Positions 2,122-17,173 of a stretch of DNA of 21,350 nucleotides are shown here, one piece after another. The position numbers and the translations under genes were made by a program. The stretch is from a virus: the IMG/VR virus record IMGVR_UViG_3300017744_000195, positions 1-21,350 of that record. The stretch is one strand, 5' to 3'. How positions within the stretch are numbered: the first letter of the stretch is position 1; every line of letters begins with the position of its first letter. The notes under the pieces are model-generated. The model ran no database searches and had not been told where the DNA came from. It worked only from the letters and a program-made list of their open reading frames with translations.

Positions 2122-2472
2122 TTACTCTACCTCTAATAATATAAAAAATTCTAAAGTGTCATTTGAAGAAAATGGCCCGATTCCATCAAAATTTTGTCTA
2201 ATGACTAAATCAGTAGAATCATAAAATCCAACCTCTCTAAGAACTTGACCTGTCATCCCTGCTTGATTACAGTTTACTGTAGCCTTTATTTGAACAACAT
2301 TTGAGTTGGCATCATTAGTCGCCGTACTTGTTACGCTAACACTAGTCAAAGGAACATCTAAATCCCCTTGTGTTGGGAATGTAGTATTGCCCCCTAAACC
2401 AACTTTAGCACTATCAATTAAACTGCTCGCAATGTGACCTGCAATCAAATTCTGTAATTTTTCAGTTATCAA
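2122..2472 (-). CDS. Small tail-tip/fibre-base protein
   Basis: A 116-aa protein starting at TTG (2472), which overlaps the TGA of the giant hub gene (TTGA). The TTG is supported by GGAGGA six nt upstream, and no in-frame ATG lies near. The sequence shows an N-terminal helix (residues 1-20), a GLGGNTTFPTQGDLDVPL segment, and a C-terminal REVGFYD...IRQNFDGI...LEFFILLEV segment. That pattern of beta strands, with E-V-G-F-Y-D then I-R-Q, resembles small phage baseplate or fibre-attachment proteins whose typical core is EiGlfd...l..R. Its place between hub and fibre fits an adaptor that holds the fibre. The family assignment is by pattern memory only. Confidence 0.65.
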   Translation of the reverse strand: MITEKLQNLIAGHIASSLIDSAKVGLGGNTTFPTQGDLDVPLTSVSVTSTATNDANSNVVQIKATVNCNQAGMTGQVLREVGFYDSTDLVIRQNFDGIGPFSSNDTLEFFILLEVE

Positions 2473-5400
2473 AACTCTTCCTCCACTAATGTAGTAGTAG
2501 TTGTTACTCCTATGTTTAATGCGGCGGTGTTCGTATTTAGTGTTTGTGTGCTAGTATTAAGTGCAAAAGAACCAGCCGGAACTGTAGATTTTCTCACTAA
2601 GAATTTTATCGGCTTTATCTTAGCCGTCTTCGCTATATCGAACTTCTGTGCAACATCATCAAATTCATTTTCTCTAATTTTATTATTTATAGCATTATTC
2701 GCTACTGCTAATTCTGCAAATCTATCTTCTAGTCCTTTGGTGTAACTACCTAGTTCTAAGTCCATAGTTCCTGTTAGATTATGTTGTATTTCTAATACAA
2801 TAAACTCGCCTCTCCTAATACCCTCTTGTGGTATTTCAACAGTAACCAAATCACCAACTCTTAGTTGAGATATTCCCTTATATCCAACATTTAATTGAAG
2901 GCCGAAACTTTCATCATTGTGCAATTTTAACAACTGTAATGCCCTTTTGTCTACATCTACTTGAGTAGTGAGTGCATTCTCAAATATTTGTAGAGTCTTC
3001 TTACCTCTCTTCTTGATACTTCTAAGTTCCTTTCTAACTCCTTTGTGGAACTTACCAAATACTTCTATTTCATTAAATAAATCAAATTCACTCTTTTCTC
3101 TACTGTAAGAGAATATTTCTGTTTTATTATCTAAAGTGTTAAAGAAAACTCTTGAAGATAAATCTTGTTCAATTTTATCCTTTATCTTAAAAGAACCTCC
3201 CTCTTCTATTAATGTTTTATCCTTTTTAGTCATTAAGAATTTTATTGCTGAAAATAAATCTACACCCCTAAAATTAGGAGCCACAATAAATGGATAACTA
3301 GTAGTTGTTTGTGTAAAGTCTACATTATTTTCTTCTAATAATTCATTAATTAGACTATCACTATCGGATGCAATTGTGACACTAGAACCTATCATAGCCC
3401 TCTTAGCATCTATACTATTATTAGTTCCAACTAAAACATCCATAGTCTCGGAGACAGAAACTACACCTAAGAGTTCTTTTTGTTGTTCAAGAGTCATTTC
3501 AAAGCCTATATCATTTCCTGCATCACTAAATTCAACGGTAGTAAAATTATTGTTATCCCCATCACTAAAATTCATTTTTAATTTACCTTCTGTCATTATA
3601 TTATTTCTCATACTTGCAGGGTTTCTAATAACAATATCGCTTTCATCTGTTTGTCCGTCAGTATCTACAACAACATACATCGAAAGAACTGCCTCATTGT
3701 TCCCTTCGTCGCTTCTACTACCCAATCTATCTGCAAATACGAAGTTGTTTATTGTAGTGTAAGTAGTATTTTCTTTAGGTTTCTTAGTGTAACTTGAAGA
3801 CAACTGATTCAATCTAATTTTCTTTGGGCTAAAATTATGAAAGCAAGTATGGTTAGGTTGCATTATTCTAAAAGTCTTAAGCCTACCTGTGGTTACAGAA
3901 GCCGCTACAGGCGAAGGGAAATTTCCACTAACCGTCAAAATATGAGTTCTGTCTTTTCTAGTTGTGTCTACTTCGTGTGATATAACATATAATATATGGT
4001 TGGGCGTTCCTAAATCCATTGAGGCTCTATTATTGCTAAAACCATTCATAGTTCTTGAGCCATCTTCCGCAACATTACTACCGATATTAACGCCTAAGTC
4101 TCTAACTATTGGGTTTCCATCATCGTCAGTATCGTCTATTTTCACTCCTTCGGAAACTAAATAACAACCAGTCAAATCTACATGGCTTAAGAATAAAGGA
4201 TTATCTGTTCTAACTTCTCCATCTCCATTTGCGAAACTGTCTTTTTGTGAGGTTATATTAAAATCAGTAAATGCTAGAACAGTAACATCTGTGCCATTAG
4301 TTGCTTTTTTAGTTCCTACTCTATTTCTGCTAAATATAACATCTACATCTGTTCCCGCACTTGTAGCGTTGTTGGACATATGAATTAGTGGAGGGCTAAC
4401 ACCGGCAGTTCTTTCTTGTGTTCTAGTAAAAAATGGAACTTTCTCACTATCTACATAAAGATATATTGACCTATTTGCAAAGGTAATATATTCTTCATCT
4501 GCCGCTAATTCATCATTTGTGTCTTCAAATCTAGCACCTGTATTAGTTGCCGTATTAAAAACACAAGATGCAGTATAGCCCACATCAATTCTTAAAGTTG
4601 GCTTAAAACCACCAAACACTCCATCGGCATCATCTTGATAGGTTCTATTTGTGTTTGCATTAAAGAGGTCGGTTCCTATCACTTTAGTAGCGAAACCTAT
4701 CGCTGATTGAGAAATAGTTCCTGTTGTGGTTTTAGTAGTAGTTGCTGTGCTAATTCCAAATCTCACTTCTTGTCTATTGGTTCCCTCTATGTCTATGCTT
4801 CTAAAACTTCCCACCTTAGTAGCGGCCATACCAGTATCTACCCTAGCACCACTACCGCCTGTTATTCCCCATCTATCTAAAAATATAGGAATCGAGCCTT
4901 GATAATTTCTTGTTGCGTTTTTGTTATTTTCGTCTGTGCCATTAAGCGCACTGTGTGACGATGCTCCATGAAAGTTTTGTGTACCTTGTCTTAAATCCGG
5001 TGTAACTGCTATCTCCATCATTTGTGGGAAAGTGTTACCATATCGAGATTCAATATAGAAATTACTATTATTAGTATCTCTTGTTTGGTTTGCTATCCAA
5101 GAGTAAAAAGACGAATTTTGGCTAGATAAAACAATTGGTAAAACAATACTATTATCTTGTCCATTCCCTGCTACTTCTCCTCCCATAGCATTTACGCCAA
5201 AAATATCCGAAAAAGTAGTGTCACAAAAACTAGCACTGTTTCCACCGTAGCCACTATCGTTATTTCCTCTATTCGCAGTTGTAGAAACATAATTGCTAGG
5301 GTAGCCTGTTCCATCACTCGCTAATCCTCGCATAGTAACATATTGCATTGGGTTAATATTACCATTACCTTGAATAAAATCATTGTCGGTGTTATAGCCC

Positions 5401-8400
5401 GAAATAGTTGCAGTTCCACCTTTATTTGTAAAAGTTAAGGTTGTGGTTCCCGTTGATGTAGCATCCAAGCGTAGTGTAAAGGTGTTGTTAGAGAAGTTGA
5501 TAGAATCTACATATTGACTTAAACTACCTATCCCGCTTCCCGTAACTGTCATACCAACAAATATCTTATCCATGTCACTTGCATTAACCACAGTTACAGT
5601 TTGGCTTCCATTTACTGTATTGCAGGAGACAGTCTCTACTACAGCCGGCATTGTGTATGAATTGCTTATGTAAAATAGCCGCATGTAATTAATATTAGGT
5701 GAACTTCCATTCTGCTGATTAACTGTAGGTTTATTGAAACCTGCATTGTTAGAACTGTCTAAAACTGTTCTATTTGGTTTGTCTACTAATGTTATGGTGT
5801 TAGTTCCTACACTAGCCACCACACCAATAAATCTACCTGCCCTATCTACTAAGATTTGTTCGGCTTGTATATCGGCAGTTGCCGCACTACCTGTATCATC
5901 AACAGTATTGATGACTTTACCACTAATAGAACCTATACCAATAGGGTTATATGAGGGGTTTCCATCACTAATGCCTAAAATGTAGTGTCTAGGATAGTTG
6001 GTTATAGTCCCTATGTTGTTAGTATTTTCCGGTATGTTTTCGGGGTCAAATTGATTATAGAATACATCCACAACTAATTCGGTTAATCTCATAACGCTGA
6101 ATTTTCTTAGTTTATTTATTTGTTTTCCATCAAAGGCAGAAAGAATATTATGATGTCTGTAAGAGTCATCAACGGCAGTTATTGTATTTGTTATTCCCCT
6201 AGAGGCTTCTTTCAAATCTGAGCGTGCGCTAAGGCTTAATTCTTCTAATGTTAATAATGAATACTTTGTTATATCTCTAGTTTTATTTATGTTTAACAAA
6301 CTATCTTTTCTTGTAGAAGAATAAGGTAATAAATCACTATTACTGAATAAAAACATTCTAGTAACTTTAGGGTCTATTTGTTCAAATTTATCTCTATACT
6401 GATGAGAATTTATGTGTCTAGTTTTATTATTAGCGGAACCTCTTAAGTTAGGATAGTCTGCCTTTTCGTATAATGTTAGTTTATCGTGAACAAAGGGCGT
6501 GAAAAAGGTAAGAGGTTTCCCTCCCCTTCTAAAAAATTCTAAACCATGTGGATTGCCAGTGCATTGTTCTAGTGTTGTTGGCTCGAAGAATCTATCGCCG
6601 ATACTAGGTAAAAATCCCCTTGATTCTAATATTCTTTTGTTGTCAAACTTGAAGAATGTCGCTACTGAAGTATTAGTAGTGGATGTTGCATTTACAGCGT
6701 TACCATCCAAATCTACAAGTCTCATTTGTAATAGCAAGTCACCCGCTTCACCAAATCCTACAATTGCACCAACGAAAGTGTCACTAGGAATATCAGGACT
6801 AACTACTTTTTGACCAACCCTAAATACATTATGGAAAAAGGAGTTTACGCTTCCCCCCATATATTTTTCGACATCTATCCTAACTACAGAATTACCACTG
6901 ACAGTTCTTATATTACCTTCACCAATGTAATTCCTTTGACTTATATCTGTTCCTATTATATTGTTTTGGCGAATGCCATCAACATATTGTCCTGCGTTAT
7001 ATCTATACGCACTAGCATAATATTTTATTTTGCTAGTTTCGTTTTCATACATTCTAGTGTCATCCGAGTCAAATATTAAATGCTTACTCTTGTTGTAGTT
7101 GCCCTTTTCTAAATTAAGCAACCTATAGTTAGAAGAACCAAATTGAGATTGATAACTCCCTAACCTATCAACTCTAGCACTTGTTATTAAACTGTGAACC
7201 CTATTTCCGCTATTAAACAACATAGGATGTTCTGCTTCTAACTTGAAATCTAATATGCTTGTTATGTTATTTACATTAGTTTGATTAACTTGCGGATGTA
7301 ACAATGCAATGTTTTTTCCTCCGTGTAAGTGACCCCCATTCAATAAATTTAATTCGTGTGTGAACTTCGTAGTTTCCCTTACATTGTCTTGATTGTGATG
7401 TCCTTCTAATCTATCTATTGACATCCCACTGACAAAGAAAGCAGTAAAGGCTGTTGTTACATTAACAGTAGTTTCTGCATTGTTATCTAAAGTAACCGTT
7501 CTTTCTTCTTTGTTCATGCTTTCAATCAAATAAGTAGTTCCAACTGCTAAACCTGTGCCTATCACTTGCATGCCAATAAATAACTTTTCAGTATCTACAT
7601 TTTTTATTACAGGAGAACCTGCAACTATTGATGCTCTTACGAAAGTATGAACACCAACCTCTCGGTCTAGCATTATTCTACATTGATTGCTAGCCAATGA
7701 AAATTCAGTAGGGTTTGCACTAGCACCTGTAGCATTATTGCTCATTTCAATACTAATACTACCTACGGAGGTTATAGTAGTGGATGAAGGGATGTTAGAA
7801 TGTGTAGTATCATCTATTACCATTCCTACTGATAGTTTACTGGTATCTACCGTTAATGTCGCATCAACGCCTAATGTTGTAGCATTCAATGTAATGTTTA
7901 TATCCTTTTCAACTTGTAATATATTTGCCAAAAACTTACCGTTTACAAATAAAGGTTTTAGATGTAAGTTTCTTTCTCCTCTAATATTATTAACAGAAGA
8001 CAGGGCAGAATCCGAATCAACTTCTATAAATCTTCTAGCAAGACTCATATTATGTGTTAGTTTACCAACTAAAGTAAAATCAGTATCTTGGGTGTTAGCG
8101 TGGTTAATATCAACCCTACCCAATGTTAGTGGATTATATGGAGCAATGGTTACAATAGTTCCTTTATTCTCACCGGCAGACCTAGTATTTACTATCTCAA
8201 AATCAATAAGAGTGTTTACAGTATCAAAGGTTTCGCTATTTCCATTTTCATCTTCTAGTATAGTTTGGAAGTGAGAATCGCTTTTCATGTTAGCAATGTC
8301 ACTTAAGAAATACCCTACTGCTCCTTCATTGTCGCTTGCGCTACTGCTGATTAAAATGTCTCCTTCGTCACCGGAAGAAGTTATTTTTACTCCCGAATCA

Positions 8401-10943
8401 AAGAACAGTCCTTTATCCGAAGCACCGCTTAGACTAGTAGTAGAATCTACTAGAGTATTAGTTGCTAATGCTTTATTTAACATAAATCCTTTATTAGATT
8501 CTTTGAATCCTACAAGTGTAGTTCCCTGCGCCCTTGCTTTATCCACTAATGTAAAACTAGTTCCCGTCGCTGTTGTTGCTATTTCTCCTATATATCCCAT
8601 CATACCCGAAGCATGTTTCAAATGAACCTTGTCTCCTGCTGTCAAAGTTATACTACCCGAAGCAGTTAATGTTTTACTATCAAATTCACAAGTAAAGTTT
8701 ACTCCAACGCTAGATAATTTATTATACGGACTTTGAGTTGAATAAATTACATCTTGAGAAAATAAAGTATTCTTGTTTATAATAGGAGATATTAGTTGCC
8801 TTATTTTACTTCTACCTGCTAACTTAACTTGTGTTAATCCATTTTCTTTGTAGTTATCTATTCTTTCAACAGTTCCGTCTATTTTTTCTACTAGAATAGC
8901 ATATTGACCATTCATGTAATCTAGCATGTTTCCTTGAGCATGATATTCATGTTCGTTGCTAGTGTTACCATCCGAATCATAATATGCCTTATTTGAAAAA
9001 CTTAGAGTAATTAATTTTTTGACGGCATCAATAGAAGTAACTTTAGCATATAAAAATGAGAATTCTTTTGATAAGAATTTTACATATAAGTCTGCTTGCC
9101 TATTATCTATTAATGGAAAATCTGTTAGTAAAGTTTTATCCTTTTTGTTATAAGCCCTTCTTTCTAATAAACTTTCATTTGCTAATGTTGGTAAACTACC
9201 TACGGTAAATTCAGATTCGGTTTCTAATCTATGGTAAGTTGTAAATGAAATAGTTTGTGCGGCATTACTAAAAGCACCTAATCCCGAAACTACCATTATT
9301 CTATTACCAACTTTAACTTCATCCCCTTCATTCAAATAACTGTTTAAGTCGTGGCTTGTTGTTATGTTATATACAGAACCTCCAACGAATGAAAAAATGG
9401 TTGCTCCAAATGATTTAAATTCATTAAAGTCACCTGTAAACAGTTGTTGTCTAATTCTAAGAGGCTCGTTATCTTTCATTTTAGTAGTCACTATTCTGTA
9501 AGGGTCTGCTATTTTTACTTCTGCTAAACTACCCTTTGCGCCAATAGATTCATACAATTGTTGGTCAATTACATTGTAACTTAAATTTGCTTTGTCTTTA
9601 GAAAGACCATAAGACAAATATCTAATAGGGCCAGTATAGTTTTGACTTGCTAGGCCTGTTACTTCATCGTCGTCATCTCTTCTAGCATGGCAGAAACAAC
9701 TATCTCTATCGAATGGTGTATAATCGGGTAAAGGAACACCACCTTCATTGCTATTAACTGTATTCATAACGACAGGACTATCTAGTTCCCTTAGCCTATC
9801 TACTAACCTAGTCCTTAAGGAGAACCTACTATAATCAATAACCTCAAAACCAAAGTCCTGCATAGTAGTAAAGAAACTAGTTGTTGTTAGAGTATCTGTT
9901 CCTGCCGAAAAGAAATCTAATTCCGAATATAAAATATTATACTTTTTGTTGTGGTCAAGTTGATTTTTCTTATCTGTGTTTTCATCAAAGAAATAAAACA
10001 GTGGTCTTGATAGACCCGCATTATGACCTATGTTATTTTTTATTCCAAGGCCAACAGCCACTATAGTTTTATCAGTAGGAATAGGAGTAGAGTATAATTT
10101 GAATTTAACTCCCTTACCTACTTCATCCCCTAGTTTTGGCTCAAACTCAAAAGAGTCTCCATTTACATCATCGTTTAATATTTCTTTAACTCTAACAAAG
10201 TGATGTTTAGCACTATCATTAGAATTAATCATAGCAAATAAATAGTGTGTATTTATATTAACGCTGTTAATGTTTATTCCTGTTTGAGTTAAATCGTCAA
10301 AGCATTTTATAGAAGTGCCTCTTGTGTTTTGTAAATTTTGATGTTCTAGCCCTAAAGTGTATGTTGTATTGGTAGCAGTAGCACTCGCCTTTTCCGTTAA
10401 ATTAAATGTAGTGCTTGATGGTATGTTTTTGATTGTAGCAGTCATGCCCGTAAAACCTACTCCGGTTACACTTTGACCGACATACAATGAGTTAGTATTT
10501 CCACTAGATAAAGTGACCTTTGCACTACCCATAGTAGCATTACAGTTAGCAATTTGCGACCTGCCTATGGGAGTCAATACAACGCTCCCCGAACCCTCTT
10601 CTATTATAACAGCACCAAAATTATCTACAACTGAACCACTACTTGTAGGGGATAATGTGCTTGCACACAGTAAAGGATGAGGGGGAACTTCAAATGCTGA
10701 TTTGGTAAAAGTTCTATCGGCAGTTGTAGAATTAGTAGCCGACTTGCTAAGAACTGCTATTGATTGGAGAGGAGACAAACCAATTATTACAGTTCCATTC
10801 GGTATTCCACTACCTGTAACTACCATTCCAATAAAAAGACTATTAGTATTCACTGTTAAATTAGCACTACCATTAGTCGTGCTTGCTCTATCGAAGGTTA
10901 ATGTGTCTTTAGACGGAGTAAAGGCCACTATTGTTGATGTCAT
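2469..10943 (-). CDS. Giant tail hub / central fibre protein (2,824 aa)
   Basis: This gene occupies about 40% of the window. ATG at 10943 overlaps the previous stop (ATGA) and has GAGGAGGT six nt upstream. The long middle is beta-rich and Asn/Thr/Ser-rich. At least five copies of a 60-75-residue module with a core like LFIGMVVTGSGIPNGT lie near residues 35, 150, 1035, 1120 and 1790, with weaker relatives near 770 and 1370. Residues about 2540-2750 look different: they contain FNEIEVFGK, LQLLKLHNDESFG and LRVGDLVTVEIP, then IRRGEFIVLEIQHN, and resemble the last domain of tail hub proteins (gp27/gpD type) that close the tube. The last 40 residues are Thr-rich with LNT repeats. The protein probably joins tail-tip closure to an extended surface. 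I see no hydrolase motif. Hub identity is inference from C-terminal pattern and gene order. Confidence 0.75.
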   Translation of the reverse strand: MTSTIVAFTPSKDTLTFDRASTTNGSANLTVNTNSLFIGMVVTGSGIPNGTVIIGLSPLQSIAVLSKSATNSTTADRTFTKSAFEVPPHPLLCASTLSPTSSGSVVDNFGAVIIEEGSGSVVLTPIGRSQIANCNATMGSAKVTLSSGNTNSLYVGQSVTGVGFTGMTATIKNIPSSTTFNLTEKASATATNTTYTLGLEHQNLQNTRGTSIKCFDDLTQTGININSVNINTHYLFAMINSNDSAKHHFVRVKEILNDDVNGDSFEFEPKLGDEVGKGVKFKLYSTPIPTDKTIVAVGLGIKNNIGHNAGLSRPLFYFFDENTDKKNQLDHNKKYNILYSELDFFSAGTDTLTTTSFFTTMQDFGFEVIDYSRFSLRTRLVDRLRELDSPVVMNTVNSNEGGVPLPDYTPFDRDSCFCHARRDDDDEVTGLASQNYTGPIRYLSYGLSKDKANLSYNVIDQQLYESIGAKGSLAEVKIADPYRIVTTKMKDNEPLRIRQQLFTGDFNEFKSFGATIFSFVGGSVYNITTSHDLNSYLNEGDEVKVGNRIMVVSGLGAFSNAAQTISFTTYHRLETESEFTVGSLPTLANESLLERRAYNKKDKTLLTDFPLIDNRQADLYVKFLSKEFSFLYAKVTSIDAVKKLITLSFSNKAYYDSDGNTSNEHEYHAQGNMLDYMNGQYAILVEKIDGTVERIDNYKENGLTQVKLAGRSKIRQLISPIINKNTLFSQDVIYSTQSPYNKLSSVGVNFTCEFDSKTLTASGSITLTAGDKVHLKHASGMMGYIGEIATTATGTSFTLVDKARAQGTTLVGFKESNKGFMLNKALATNTLVDSTTSLSGASDKGLFFDSGVKITSSGDEGDILISSSASDNEGAVGYFLSDIANMKSDSHFQTILEDENGNSETFDTVNTLIDFEIVNTRSAGENKGTIVTIAPYNPLTLGRVDINHANTQDTDFTLVGKLTHNMSLARRFIEVDSDSALSSVNNIRGERNLHLKPLFVNGKFLANILQVEKDINITLNATTLGVDATLTVDTSKLSVGMVIDDTTHSNIPSSTTITSVGSISIEMSNNATGASANPTEFSLASNQCRIMLDREVGVHTFVRASIVAGSPVIKNVDTEKLFIGMQVIGTGLAVGTTYLIESMNKEERTVTLDNNAETTVNVTTAFTAFFVSGMSIDRLEGHHNQDNVRETTKFTHELNLLNGGHLHGGKNIALLHPQVNQTNVNNITSILDFKLEAEHPMLFNSGNRVHSLITSARVDRLGSYQSQFGSSNYRLLNLEKGNYNKSKHLIFDSDDTRMYENETSKIKYYASAYRYNAGQYVDGIRQNNIIGTDISQRNYIGEGNIRTVSGNSVVRIDVEKYMGGSVNSFFHNVFRVGQKVVSPDIPSDTFVGAIVGFGEAGDLLLQMRLVDLDGNAVNATSTTNTSVATFFKFDNKRILESRGFLPSIGDRFFEPTTLEQCTGNPHGLEFFRRGGKPLTFFTPFVHDKLTLYEKADYPNLRGSANNKTRHINSHQYRDKFEQIDPKVTRMFLFSNSDLLPYSSTRKDSLLNINKTRDITKYSLLTLEELSLSARSDLKEASRGITNTITAVDDSYRHHNILSAFDGKQINKLRKFSVMRLTELVVDVFYNQFDPENIPENTNNIGTITNYPRHYILGISDGNPSYNPIGIGSISGKVINTVDDTGSAATADIQAEQILVDRAGRFIGVVASVGTNTITLVDKPNRTVLDSSNNAGFNKPTVNQQNGSSPNINYMRLFYISNSYTMPAVVETVSCNTVNGSQTVTVVNASDMDKIFVGMTVTGSGIGSLSQYVDSINFSNNTFTLRLDATSTGTTTLTFTNKGGTATISGYNTDNDFIQGNGNINPMQYVTMRGLASDGTGYPSNYVSTTANRGNNDSGYGGNSASFCDTTFSDIFGVNAMGGEVAGNGQDNSIVLPIVLSSQNSSFYSWIANQTRDTNNSNFYIESRYGNTFPQMMEIAVTPDLRQGTQNFHGASSHSALNGTDENNKNATRNYQGSIPIFLDRWGITGGSGARVDTGMAATKVGSFRSIDIEGTNRQEVRFGISTATTTKTTTGTISQSAIGFATKVIGTDLFNANTNRTYQDDADGVFGGFKPTLRIDVGYTASCVFNTATNTGARFEDTNDELAADEEYITFANRSIYLYVDSEKVPFFTRTQERTAGVSPPLIHMSNNATSAGTDVDVIFSRNRVGTKKATNGTDVTVLAFTDFNITSQKDSFANGDGEVRTDNPLFLSHVDLTGCYLVSEGVKIDDTDDDGNPIVRDLGVNIGSNVAEDGSRTMNGFSNNRASMDLGTPNHILYVISHEVDTTRKDRTHILTVSGNFPSPVAASVTTGRLKTFRIMQPNHTCFHNFSPKKIRLNQLSSSYTKKPKENTTYTTINNFVFADRLGSRSDEGNNEAVLSMYVVVDTDGQTDESDIVIRNPASMRNNIMTEGKLKMNFSDGDNNNFTTVEFSDAGNDIGFEMTLEQQKELLGVVSVSETMDVLVGTNNSIDAKRAMIGSSVTIASDSDSLINELLEENNVDFTQTTTSYPFIVAPNFRGVDLFSAIKFLMTKKDKTLIEEGGSFKIKDKIEQDLSSRVFFNTLDNKTEIFSYSREKSEFDLFNEIEVFGKFHKGVRKELRSIKKRGKKTLQIFENALTTQVDVDKRALQLLKLHNDESFGLQLNVGYKGISQLRVGDLVTVEIPQEGIRRGEFIVLEIQHNLTGTMDLELGSYTKGLEDRFAELAVANNAINNKIRENEFDDVAQKFDIAKTAKIKPIKFLVRKSTVPAGSFALNTSTQTLNTNTAALNIGVTTTTTLVEEEF

Positions 10944-12799: not shown

Positions 12800-14800
12800 T
12801 CACCTCACGAATCCACTAGAAGAAGAACTCCTATTGATTTTATTTGTTATCATTCTTCCAACTTGGTCTGCTATTCTTCTTAATTCAGCATCGGAAGTAT
12901 CTTTGGCGTTTATAGTAATGTTGATGTTGGTATCTCCCATCTTCATAGAATCTCTATTATTATGTACTCTACTTCCCGCAGGTAGCCTAACTAATTCCGG
13001 CCCCTTTTCTCCAACTAATTGTAGACCGGAGGCAGAAACTATACCTCCGTTTGCGAAAGCACCTTTAATAGAACTATCCAATTTCTTCTTTTGTTCGTCA
13101 CTTAAACTATTATAGCCACTTACAGTTTTAGCCACCTCTCTACCTTTCTCAACCGTTTTAGTAAAGTTATCTTTCACTTTACCAAGGAATTTTTTGACAC
13201 CTTTGACTAGACTTACTTTGAAAACAAAACCTTTAGCAAAGTCCTTTAGTGTACTTAATATGTCACTAAAGAAATCACCATTAGTCATATAATTAAGTAA
13301 TTTAGCAACGAACTCAACAGGTTCTCTAATTATCTTAAGTAACAGGTCGTTTATTTCTTCTTTGTATTGAGTATATAGGGCTACTAAGAAAGCCGCCACT
13401 AAAACAAATACTGCTAGTGGTAGTGCATAAGTAGCAAGCAATTGTAGTGCCATAGCAATTAATGTCTTTGCCATCCAAACTCCCGCTACCAACATACCTG
13501 CTTGAACTGCATATTCTATTACTGCGGCGGCGAAAGTAGGATTAGTAAACATTTCATTGAAGAAATCTATTATTAATCCAAATCCTGCTGTTAATGTAGT
13601 CCATGCCAATTCGACTAGCAATATTCCTCCGTCTATTAATAAGTTCTTTACCTTCTCTAACATAGGTGGTATTAACGCAAATGCTTTTTCATAGTCTCCA
13701 CTAATGAACGCAAATGCTATTTTAAATAAATCCATCACTACTCCAAATACTCCTATAACAAAGTCTTTTATGTCGGCTATCAACCCCATTTCTTCTAATA
13801 CTTTGAATATTTCATATGCGGCTTTTAAGAAGATTAAGAAGGCTATAGCACCAAATATAACAAATAATATCATCCTTTGTAAATTAGGTAATATTGACTT
13901 TTGCATCATCTTATTAAAATTCAATATTTTCTGTTGATACTTCTTTCTATTCTTTGCTAATCTAAACATACCAATTAAAGGAGCAATTGGTAAAGCAAGA
14001 GCCTTAAATTGTTTAGGGTCAAAGAAACTTTTCTTTAAACTTTCAAAGCCTTCTTTCTTGCTGTCTTTAGAAATGCCTTCTTGTTCTTTGGACATCTTTT
14101 GTTTTTCATCCCCGATAGCAAACTTTACTTCACGCTTAGTTTGTTTCTTATCCATGCCTTGCATTTTTGCTCGTTTTCTAGCCTGTTTTTCTGCTAATAC
14201 TAATCTATCTTCATCAAAAGCATGAGCCTGTTTTGCCATTTTTATGACTTCTTCTTCTTCCTTTCGCATTTGTTTATGTTTTTCCGAAACACTATTGTAG
14301 GCTTTAGCCATAGCATAGGCTTCGTCTCCTGTTGCTTTGAGTGCTATTTGAAATGCCGCAGTATCTTGTATTTGTTCTTTCAAAAGGTTGCTTTCTGCTT
14401 CAGTTTCTATACCTCTTTGGTAGTTTTGATATGCCGCCATTGTGTCTTTCATTGCGGCATTAAGAGTATTGTACTTCTTTATATTCTTAACAATAGCATC
14501 ATTCTGTTCATTCCTTGCTTTAGTATTTTCTTTAGACGCTTCTGCGAACTCGGACAAAACACCTAATGCACCTCTTAGATAATTTTGGACTTTCCACAAA
14601 GGAGTACCGGAAACTAGCCTACTAAAAATAGTCCATTTTTTGCCGGCTTTATTAATTGAATTAGCGGCATCAGTTATTTCTTTGAATAAACCTTTAAATT
14701 CAATACCGGAACGAAAGGAAACCTTTTCTAAACTTGCTAACGAATCCCCAAGACTTTCGATTTCTCTTTCTGTCTTTTCGAGGTCACTCATTAACTTCAC
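12800..14800 (-). CDS. Tail tape measure protein
   Basis: A protein of 666 aa (663 from the preferred start) that sets tail length and is the core around which tube subunits assemble. Numbered from 14800, residues 1-260 are helical and charged, with coiled-coil character (DLEKTEREIESL, HKQMRKEEEEVIK). Residues 308-330, 340-368, 388-415 and 422-477 are strongly hydrophobic, as expected for segments thought to enter the cell envelope at infection. The C-terminus (583-611) carries the family signature FANGGIVSASG, then LVGEKGPELVRLPAGSRV, followed by a helical tail. The frame can start at GTG 14800, overlapping the chaperone stop, but ATG at 14791 has GGTGA five nt upstream and is more likely. 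At about 1.5 angstrom per residue the tail would be near 100 nm. Confidence 0.93.
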   Translation of the reverse strand: MKLMSDLEKTEREIESLGDSLASLEKVSFRSGIEFKGLFKEITDAANSINKAGKKWTIFSRLVSGTPLWKVQNYLRGALGVLSEFAEASKENTKARNEQNDAIVKNIKKYNTLNAAMKDTMAAYQNYQRGIETEAESNLLKEQIQDTAAFQIALKATGDEAYAMAKAYNSVSEKHKQMRKEEEEVIKMAKQAHAFDEDRLVLAEKQARKRAKMQGMDKKQTKREVKFAIGDEKQKMSKEQEGISKDSKKEGFESLKKSFFDPKQFKALALPIAPLIGMFRLAKNRKKYQQKILNFNKMMQKSILPNLQRMILFVIFGAIAFLIFLKAAYEIFKVLEEMGLIADIKDFVIGVFGVVMDLFKIAFAFISGDYEKAFALIPPMLEKVKNLLIDGGILLVELAWTTLTAGFGLIIDFFNEMFTNPTFAAAVIEYAVQAGMLVAGVWMAKTLIAMALQLLATYALPLAVFVLVAAFLVALYTQYKEEINDLLLKIIREPVEFVAKLLNYMTNGDFFSDILSTLKDFAKGFVFKVSLVKGVKKFLGKVKDNFTKTVEKGREVAKTVSGYNSLSDEQKKKLDSSIKGAFANGGIVSASGLQLVGEKGPELVRLPAGSRVHNNRDSMKMGDTNINITINAKDTSDAELRRIADQVGRMITNKINRSSSSSGFVR

Positions 14801-14802
14801 CG
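14791..14802 (-). promoter_or_regulatory. Ribosome-binding site deciding the tape measure start
   Basis: GGTGA (about 14802-14798) lies five nt before ATG 14791-14789. The alternative GTG at 14800 overlaps the chaperone TGA and lies within this element, so it lacks a properly spaced site of its own. Initiation at 14791 is therefore preferred and shortens the protein by three residues. Confidence 0.55.
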
Positions 14803-15003
14803 TCTATTTCTTGCTTTTTCCAGTTCTTCGCCCTTTATTGTTTCAATTACACCATGAACAGTTAATAAATCTTTTACTAAACTAACTGGCATTTTATATA
14901 CCTCTAAGGGGCTTATGCTTAATGCAGAAGATAGAGTATAGACCATTATTAAACTAATAGTCTGCACATCGGAAGGCTTACCTTTTAATGCCTTCCTAAT
15001 CAT
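14797..15003 (-). CDS. Tail assembly chaperone, frameshift extension (T-like part)
   Basis: A 68-codon frame that most likely is not a separate gene but the C-terminal part of a -1 frameshift product. A ribosome slipping on A AAA AAG (15012-15006) reads GGA and then enters this frame at its ATG codon (15003), giving ...K-K-G-M-I-R-K-A-L and ending at 14797. From ATG 15365 the fusion is 189 aa. The sequence (TISLIMVYTLSSALSISPLEVYKMPVSLVKDLLTVHGVI) is helical, like extensions thought to bind the tape measure protein. In lambda the equivalent pair is gpG and gpGT. Independent initiation at 15003 is possible, but the nearby AGGAGG is 16 nt before the ATG and AAAGGA directly abuts it, neither being well placed. 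Confidence 0.8.
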   Translation of the reverse strand: MIRKALKGKPSDVQTISLIMVYTLSSALSISPLEVYKMPVSLVKDLLTVHGVIETIKGEELEKARNRR

Positions 15004-15025
15004 TCCTTTTTTTCGTCATCCTCCT
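14971..15025 (-). promoter_or_regulatory. -1 programmed ribosomal frameshift signal
   Basis: Read on the minus strand, AGGAGG (15025-15020) is followed by 7 nt, then the heptamer A AAA AAG in the zero frame (15012-15006), then 9 nt, then a hairpin. The hairpin pairs GGAAGGC (14996-14990) with GCCTTCC (14977-14971). It can extend through TTA/TAA with a bulged A at 14989, leaving the five-nt loop AAAGG. The zero frame ends at TGA 15002-15000, just past the heptamer, and the -1 frame is open for 69 codons after the slip (GGA plus the 68 codons listed above). Slippery site and hairpin are standard parts of -1 frameshift sites; the upstream Shine-Dalgarno-like element at this spacing matches the E. 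coli dnaX site as I remember it. Confidence 0.85.
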
Positions 15026-15550: not shown

Positions 15551-17173
15551 TCACCCCTGTAAAATCCAGTGTGTTTTCACAGTACAAGCATTAAGATTTC
15601 TCGGCATTACTGTTGCTTCTACAACAATCGGCCCTTTATCTTCAGCGATTGGAAAATTATTTGCGCTAATAAAATAGTCTTCAAACTTTAATGTAATTGT
15701 TTCTCCATTAGATTTTGTAAAAATTAATTCTATGGTTTGAGTAGTATCTTCCGAATCGTTTAGTAATGCGGTGTAAAGAGCATCGTCTGTAACATGACCA
15801 GTAAAAGAAATCTCATATGTTCTTTGTGCAGGTATAGACTCTTGAACATCTTTTGAACCAACACCTAAGAATCTTCTATCTTGTAGATTATTATTCATAG
15901 TGAGAGTTAATGAATTAATCTTCAAGAAAGTGCTTCCTAATAATTTAAAAGTTCCATCGGAGAAAAAGAACGGTTCTCTAGTTTGGTCGGCGTTAGTGCT
16001 AGACTCATAATTAACGAATGCTGTTTCATCAGTAACCCCTCTCCTAGCATCATAAACTTCATCGGAGGCTAAGGAGTGAACATTTCTTGTTGATAAATCC
16101 ATAGTCATTTTAACTTCTTCATTTTCATTAGCGGTCATAGTTAAAGTATTAACCCTACATCCTCTAGCGATTTTAACGAAGTTTAAACTTTCATCGGTTT
16201 CTGTTCCTGTTCTGTATTGATTTGTTCCTGTTAGTTTAGATAGGTTTTGTTCCAATGAAAAAGACGGTAGTAAATCTCCATCTTGTTCAGTAAAAGTATA
16301 TGTGATTGCCTTTGTTAATGTAGTCGAACCAGTTGGCCTATCTAATTTATGGTAAAAGTCTAATTGAGCATCAGTGGCCTCAAAAGGAGTAATAGGTGGG
16401 CATATTTTACTACCAACACTTCTTCTAAATATTGGCCCTGTTTCAACAATACCGCCAATAACTGCATCGTCACCTGCCGCAACTTCAGCAGTAGACTCAT
16501 TCATAGAACGAATCAAGAAACTATTGTTATCTCCCGCATTAGGTAATGTTTGTCTATGTGCATCCGTGGTTAGTTCGGTAGCCAAAGCATCCGTACTGCA
16601 TGTTAGTGTAGTACACTTTCCTAAGAAATAATATAGCCATGCTCCATGATTTGCTACAAGACCTAAATTACCTCCGGTAAAAGAAGTAATGCCCTTGTAT
16701 TGATAAGTGAAGTTTCTTGACCCACCAAGAGAAAGGTTCTGTTGTTTCATTTCAACTTCACTAGTTGGGAAAGTAGCACTTTCAAGAATGCCTAACCATT
16801 GGTCGGAAAGTAGTCTTTTTGCTGTATCAACTGGGGCAGGAACAGGTGCGCCATATGACTTAATTACAAAATAATCAGTAGAAGCCGCCGGAGCAGAAGG
16901 ACTAATAGTTACTGTATTAGCAGTATTTGATGTTATTCTATGGGTGGATTGTAATGCATCGCTTGTATTATATCTTTCTAAAAGACAACCTTTGTATAAA
17001 TTAGTAACTAATTCAAAGTCGGTATCAAAAGTTGAACTTACTTGAATGATACTTTGTGCAGAACCGTCTAATGCTCCTCCACCACTTTTTAATCCTATAC
17101 CTAAAAATAAATCATTTTCTGGTATAAATGTTATACTTGCCCCGCTTCCTAAAAATATATCTGTGTTTGCCAT
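15551..17173 (-). CDS. Major tail tube protein
   Basis: A 540-aa protein in the tube position, before the chaperone and tape measure. Residues 285-362 and 415-540 show the tube pattern: YTFTEQDGDLLPSFSLEQNL, then ARGCRVNTLTMTANENEEVKMTMDLS, then LKINSLTLTMNNNL, RTYEISFTGHVTDD and IELIFTKSNGETITLKFED. This resembles Phage_tube_2-type tube proteins, in which a conserved gC.v..l.l.a...e.v...mdl strand pair recurs. The N-terminal 1-30 (LGSGASITFIPE, FLGIGLKSGG) is typical of a tube N-arm. The length is well above many tube proteins of about 150-300 aa. Residues about 40-108 form an additional beta module (LYKGCLLERY...NTVTI...DYFVIKSYG) that probably lies on the outside of the tube. ATG at 17173 follows AAGGAGAGG. 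No sheath gene is present, so the tail is non-contractile. Confidence 0.85.
   Translation of the reverse strand: MANTDIFLGSGASITFIPENDLFLGIGLKSGGGALDGSAQSIIQVSSTFDTDFELVTNLYKGCLLERYNTSDALQSTHRITSNTANTVTISPSAPAASTDYFVIKSYGAPVPAPVDTAKRLLSDQWLGILESATFPTSEVEMKQQNLSLGGSRNFTYQYKGITSFTGGNLGLVANHGAWLYYFLGKCTTLTCSTDALATELTTDAHRQTLPNAGDNNSFLIRSMNESTAEVAAGDDAVIGGIVETGPIFRRSVGSKICPPITPFEATDAQLDFYHKLDRPTGSTTLTKAITYTFTEQDGDLLPSFSLEQNLSKLTGTNQYRTGTETDESLNFVKIARGCRVNTLTMTANENEEVKMTMDLSTRNVHSLASDEVYDARRGVTDETAFVNYESSTNADQTREPFFFSDGTFKLLGSTFLKINSLTLTMNNNLQDRRFLGVGSKDVQESIPAQRTYEISFTGHVTDDALYTALLNDSEDTTQTIELIFTKSNGETITLKFEDYFISANNFPIAEDKGPIVVEATVMPRNLNACTVKTHWILQG

Follow-up and report, generated by a model that had tools for sequence, protein, structure and literature searches.

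A very probable programmed −1 frameshift site in the tail chaperone gene of what is most likely a magrovirus, a tailed virus of archaea

The stretch of viral DNA analyzed here, a window of 21,350 nucleotides, very probably carries, in its gene for a G/GT-type tail assembly chaperone, a programmed −1 frameshift site. The virus to which it belongs would be a tailed virus of archaea and is most likely a magrovirus. This reading is supported by the gene order, by a slippery heptamer present in all 133 homologous sites, by the codon bias of an upstream G-tract and by covariation in a downstream stem; the slippage, its efficiency, the tRNAs used, the functions of the proteins and the host are what we infer. 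An earlier note on this DNA, made from the letters alone, had proposed such a site with a stimulator on each side, and comparison with the relatives supports it, neither of the two sequence patterns that the note had named as contrary being found.

The anatomy that the note described on the minus strand (AGGAGG, 7 nt, A AAA AAG, 9 nt, a 7-bp hairpin, and a stop close by) proved right base for base (Table 1), as did the open −1 frame of 69 codons ending at 14797 and the products of 121 and 189 aa. The zero-frame codons around the heptamer are GAC GAA AAA AAG GAA TGA. The three A-U pairs by which the note had extended the stem are recovered in the predicted fold, which places them within the hairpin loop, and a second hairpin predicted further downstream may possibly be part of the stimulator. 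The window thus has the upstream Shine-Dalgarno-like (SD-like) element of a three-part cassette as well as a stem-loop near the heptamer, represented in most A-type relatives by a longer, covarying stem.

Table 1. Features of the putative frameshift site and its surroundings (positions in the window)
Feature	Position	Strand	Remarks
ORF of G in the zero frame, a tail assembly chaperone of 121 aa	15000..15365	minus	ATG start; PHROG match; homologues
SD of the G ORF, AAGGTGG	15377-15371	minus	
Upstream SD-like AGGAGG	15025-15020	minus	read directly
Spacer from AGGAGG to heptamer, 7 nt	15019-15013	minus	
Slippery heptamer A AAA AAG, zero frame	15006..15012	minus	X XXY YYZ at all 133 homologous sites
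Zero-frame stop TGA, 3 nt past the heptamer	15000..15002	minus	
Spacer from heptamer to stem, 9 nt	15005-14997	minus	
7-bp hairpin, 12-nt loop	14971..14996	minus	GGAAGGC 14996-14990 with GCCTTCC 14977-14971
Second predicted hairpin, approximate limits	14939..14961	minus	folding only
T extension in the −1 frame, 69 codons plus stop	14797..15006	minus	stop at 14799-14797
Major tail (tube) protein gene, upstream neighbor	15551..17173	minus	phrog_290, E 6e-25
Tape measure protein gene, downstream neighbor	12800..14800	minus	phrog_1538, E 2e-9

The zero-frame product matches a tail assembly chaperone in PHROG (E 1.1e-4) and has homologues of 62–100% identity. The gene lies between those of the major tail protein, which matches haloviral tail tube proteins, and of the tape measure protein, which overlaps the stop of T; this is the position of G/GT in lambda, and there are PHROG matches on both sides. 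The T domain aligns without gaps with that of most other relatives bearing an A-type heptamer, and the trans-frame product is of 189 aa. In one relative, L021, the T frame has 54 codons versus some 76 in close relatives, and may be truncated or affected by an assembly error. Elsewhere in the window (2469-10943), a single ORF of 2,824 aa, presumably a tail or baseplate protein, occupies 40% of its length.

In the proposed mechanism, most ribosomes would end the 121-aa G protein at the TGA at 15002, and a minority would be slowed by the contact of AGGAGG with the anti-SD behind them and by the hairpin ahead. SD motifs are found upstream of 12 of the 13 gene starts inspected in the window, so that the anti-SD of the ribosomes that translate it is probably normal. 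On A AAA AAG the two decoding tRNAs would then shift back by one base and re-pair, and the slipped ribosomes would read on to 14797, giving the 189-aa G-T fusion. If the roles are as in lambda, the tape measure protein would be coated by G and the tail tube protein recruited through the T domain of G-T, and given this division of roles the ratio of the two products would matter.

Scanning IMG/VR four times and the GTDB genomes once provided 133 distinct homologous sites, each with a zero-frame X XXY YYZ heptamer close to the end of G; a conserved heptamer in this position, within a pair of overlapping frames, is what characterizes the G/GT type. Most of the heptamers are A-type (AAAAAAC 80, AAAAAAG 23, AAAAAAA 2) and the others G-type (GGGAAAC 20, GGGAAAG 3, GGGAAAA 3, GGGAAAT 2), in such a way that both the letters and the encoded pair (KK, KN, GK or GN) vary among sites. 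In the other genes of the window a zero-frame [A/G]3AAAZ occurs only 7 times in 6,858 codons, and against this background its presence throughout the homologous sites is not due to chance. Homologues that keep both frames and lack the heptamer, which the earlier note had named as evidence to the contrary, number none among the 133. The conserved T domain is always out of frame with G, and consequently the joining of the two always needs a shift.

The upstream element is also retained, a purine G-tract being present in 131 of the 133 sites and absent in two relatives (L047 and L049). At codon −4 the residue alternates between Glu and Gly with the G-tract retained: Glu is encoded by GAG in 81 of 81 cases and Gly by GGG in 44 of 48, versus a background of 15–20% for GAG among Glu codons and 10–17% for GGG among Gly codons, and Glu at codons −1 and −2 is written GAA in 160 of 172 cases. 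The sequences are related, and binomial P values at codon −4 are therefore overstated, but the contrast with the neighboring codons is clear. On this codon usage, the upstream G-tract is under selection at the level of the RNA.

As regards the downstream structure, the 66 nt past the slip in the window fold 3.5–3.8 SD better than synonymous shuffles encoding the same peptide, and the 71-nt segment that the earlier note had proposed for folding (15030-14960) gives a z of −2.3 versus dinucleotide shuffles. Over the A-type sites the same 66 nt have a mean of −21 kcal/mol and a mean z of −3.2 versus synonymous shuffles, and in the control windows the mean z lies between −0.9 and −1.6 upstream and between 0.2 and −0.5 further downstream. 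Most of the A-type relatives have, directly past the heptamer, a stem of 13 bp that encloses an inner hairpin. The consensus for this stem was drawn from the summed pair probabilities of 53 ungapped sequences and then counted with controls on those same sequences, which flatters the counts: 78.6% of the cells are paired, versus 43–50% with a slid partner, and changes on both sides of a pair occur in 119 cells versus 51 in shuffles, none of 500 shuffles being as high. The slid and shuffled controls speak against circularity as the whole explanation of these counts. Several of the pairs link third codon positions on both arms, and the stem can thus covary at little cost to the encoded protein. 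RNAalifold gave no consensus structure on the 53-sequence alignment, each pair being broken in some of the sequences. Rfam gave no match at gathering thresholds, and a permissive run around the site produced only hits far below the gathering scores.

In the alignment, the long stem is absent from the clade of the window, in which an AGT-type Ser codon breaks its 3′ arm. The 7-bp hairpin of this clade has invariant arms and a variable loop among six distinct members and, to judge by the alignment, it appears to be a local, lineage-specific replacement of the longer conserved stem. Synonymous drift that destroys the stem, the other contrary pattern of the earlier note, is not what is observed: all the changes in the hairpin fall in the loop, and outside this clade, in most other A-type relatives, the longer stem is maintained by compensatory change. 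The element is not universal, since a downstream stem is missing in most of the G-type clade. Ten loci with G GGA AAN sites (L172, L173, L175, L180, L186, L192, L080, L081, L167, and L169) have mostly kept a strong upstream G-tract and have no downstream structure; judged by their sequences, such loci are a two-part version of the signal.

Alternative explanations for the overlap of G and T are that T is translated separately, that the frame is shifted during transcription, or that two adjacent genes overlap without any functional link. In the first, termination followed by reinitiation, or internal initiation, would give a separate 68-aa T from the ATG at 15003, with AGGAGG as its ribosome-binding site. 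In the window that ATG does overlap the TGA of G, and AGGAGG lies 16 nt upstream of it, so that the window, taken by its own sequence, would allow reinitiation; however, 16 nt is a long spacing between an SD and a start. Of the 123 −1 sites, moreover, 57 lack a start codon close to the stop, and in 43, about a third, the new frame has none within its first 16 codons, which speaks against translation of T by itself. The conservation of T, furthermore, begins right at the slip, and reinitiation leaves unexplained the heptamer of all the homologous sites, so that we consider this route very improbable.

Slippage of the polymerase on the run of seven A's, which the window shares with most A-type sites, would shift the frame in part of the mRNA, but the 28 distinct G-type sites with G GGA AAN have no long homopolymer, several A-type sites have six A's only, and a polymerase does not need a covarying downstream stem; the probability of this explanation is slighter still. 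A chance or pseudogene overlap is contradicted by the ubiquity of the heptamer, the conserved T domain, the SD codon bias, and the covariation of the stem, and is hardly credible. A programmed −1 frameshift is thus the preferred reading of the window.

In ten distinct relatives (L036, L037, L039, L127, L131, L138, L140, L141, L261, and L263), T is in the +1/−2 frame. For these, though not for the window, a −2 slip on GAA AAA AAG in place of the −1 is, on balance, the explanation that we favor, +1 slippage or reinitiation at an ATG being the alternatives. Each of the ten has the seven A's and the AAG, so that both tRNA-Lys could re-pair two bases back, and the −2 product aligns free of gaps with the −1 products; L131 has no ATG, and the tree requires at least two changes of frame state. 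On the other hand, a +1 route reaches the same frame with a product one residue shorter, an ATG is found at the start of T in nine of the ten, and the AAG and the seven A's may have come by shared descent. In the window, too, there is a run of seven A's before the G (GA A AAA AAG), and a −2 slip could therefore re-pair there as well. The comparison of L139 and L143 with L127 suggests that a one-base deletion just past the heptamer switched the direction. Tailed phages are known to use shifts of −1, −2, and +1, and in phage Mu a −2 shift occurs in a tail gene (PMC5009743). The ten relatives resemble Mu in this respect, although their own sisters use −1 at nearly the same site. The slip sequence of Mu is also different from theirs. 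It is about an even chance that the magroviruses hold a family of signals in which the SD-like element and the covarying stem-loop act together, and in which −1 and −2 have been switched more than once through single-base changes downstream, the length of the fusion remaining constant.

The virus group is assigned through the relatives, as the window is a 21-kb fragment without PolB, GroEL or TFB genes of its own. The long relatives are records of 92–97 kb, nearly all with PolB in two pieces; of the 16 relative records, 11 have a GroEL-type chaperonin (Cpn60), and an archaeal TFB is above the cut-off in two and weaker in three more. Of two further Magrovirales genes that were looked for, the MCM helicase gave a weak match, below the cut-off, and the sliding clamp (PCNA_N) was not detected in these relatives. 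Genomes of 90–110 kb, a split PolB, a GroEL-type chaperonin, and TFB are properties of the Magrovirales, viruses of Poseidoniales (PMC10768690, PMC12999244), and within them the published description of the Aoguangviridae fits the gene set of the relatives (PMC10768690). The virus of the window is therefore most likely a member of the Magrovirales with a Poseidoniales host; that this host is archaeal is well supported through the relatives.

Some records deserve separate mention. The only hit of the scan of genome contigs, L085, is a chaperone-bearing, virus-like contig placed under a bacterial MAG of Maricaulis; it is probably mis-binned, and hence does not identify a host. Another, L027 (IMGVR_UViG_3300021958_000021, 184,733 bp), is about twice the usual genome length, with two Cpn60 genes some 90 kb apart and four PolB matches, and may be two genomes joined together, a concatemer or an artefact of assembly.

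The site can be set beside several known systems. Like G/GT in lambda, it precedes the tape measure gene and combines a −1 slip near the end of G with a T extension; unlike lambda, it would be in an archaeal virus, with SD-like and stem stimulators on both sides. The heptamer of lambda is different from A AAA AAG. With dnaX of Escherichia coli it shares A AAA AAG, the upstream SD-like element, and the downstream stem-loop, but the SD spacer of dnaX is of about 10 nt, versus 7 nt in the window, its stem spacer is shorter, and its shift leads to a shorter product, whereas that of the window leads to a longer one. The resemblance to the dnaX design on which the earlier note remarked is one of plan and not of descent, the window gene being an unrelated one, a tail chaperone by its PHROG match.

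Among archaeal viruses, frameshifts in tail chaperones have been reported before, in the haloviruses HVTV-1, HCTV-1, -2, and -5, with the same kinds of heptamers in the −1 cases (PMC5009743, PMC8211752). As for the note's suggestion that, with an archaeal host, this would be an uncommon demonstration, such a host is well supported through the relatives, but the site would not be a first case. According to a review from 2021, one archaeal −1 frameshift had been reported experimentally, in Saccharolobus, the viral cases being more tentative (PMC8211752). In HCTV-5 and HVTV-1 the tail tube gene is followed by a chaperone with a joined CDS and then by the tape measure gene and, as in the window, GGAGG lies upstream of the slip and T has a similar start (RAAIRGR). 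The window differs in that its heptamer is A AAA AAG, and its group in that the covarying stem and the selection on the SD at codon level are shown over many sequences. A tblastn search with the window chaperone against phage genomes gave no match. In HHTV-2 (L084, around 4600-4700) two genes of the chaperone region are annotated separately; there, the −1 frame at GAG GAA AAC TGA encodes a T-like start (GKLRAAVRR) with GGAGG upstream, and this may be a frameshift that the annotation has missed, on a non-canonical heptamer.

The papers searched gave no account of such a site in magroviruses, of comparative evidence for both stimulators or of a −1/−2 switch among close relatives, and these three points appear to be new. 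More than 100 natural variants show which parts of the RNA have been kept by selection in viruses of abundant, uncultured marine archaea, and these variants, with AAC or AAG as the second codon, with or without the stem, and with −1 or −2 as the shift, constitute a test set for how archaeal ribosomes slip.
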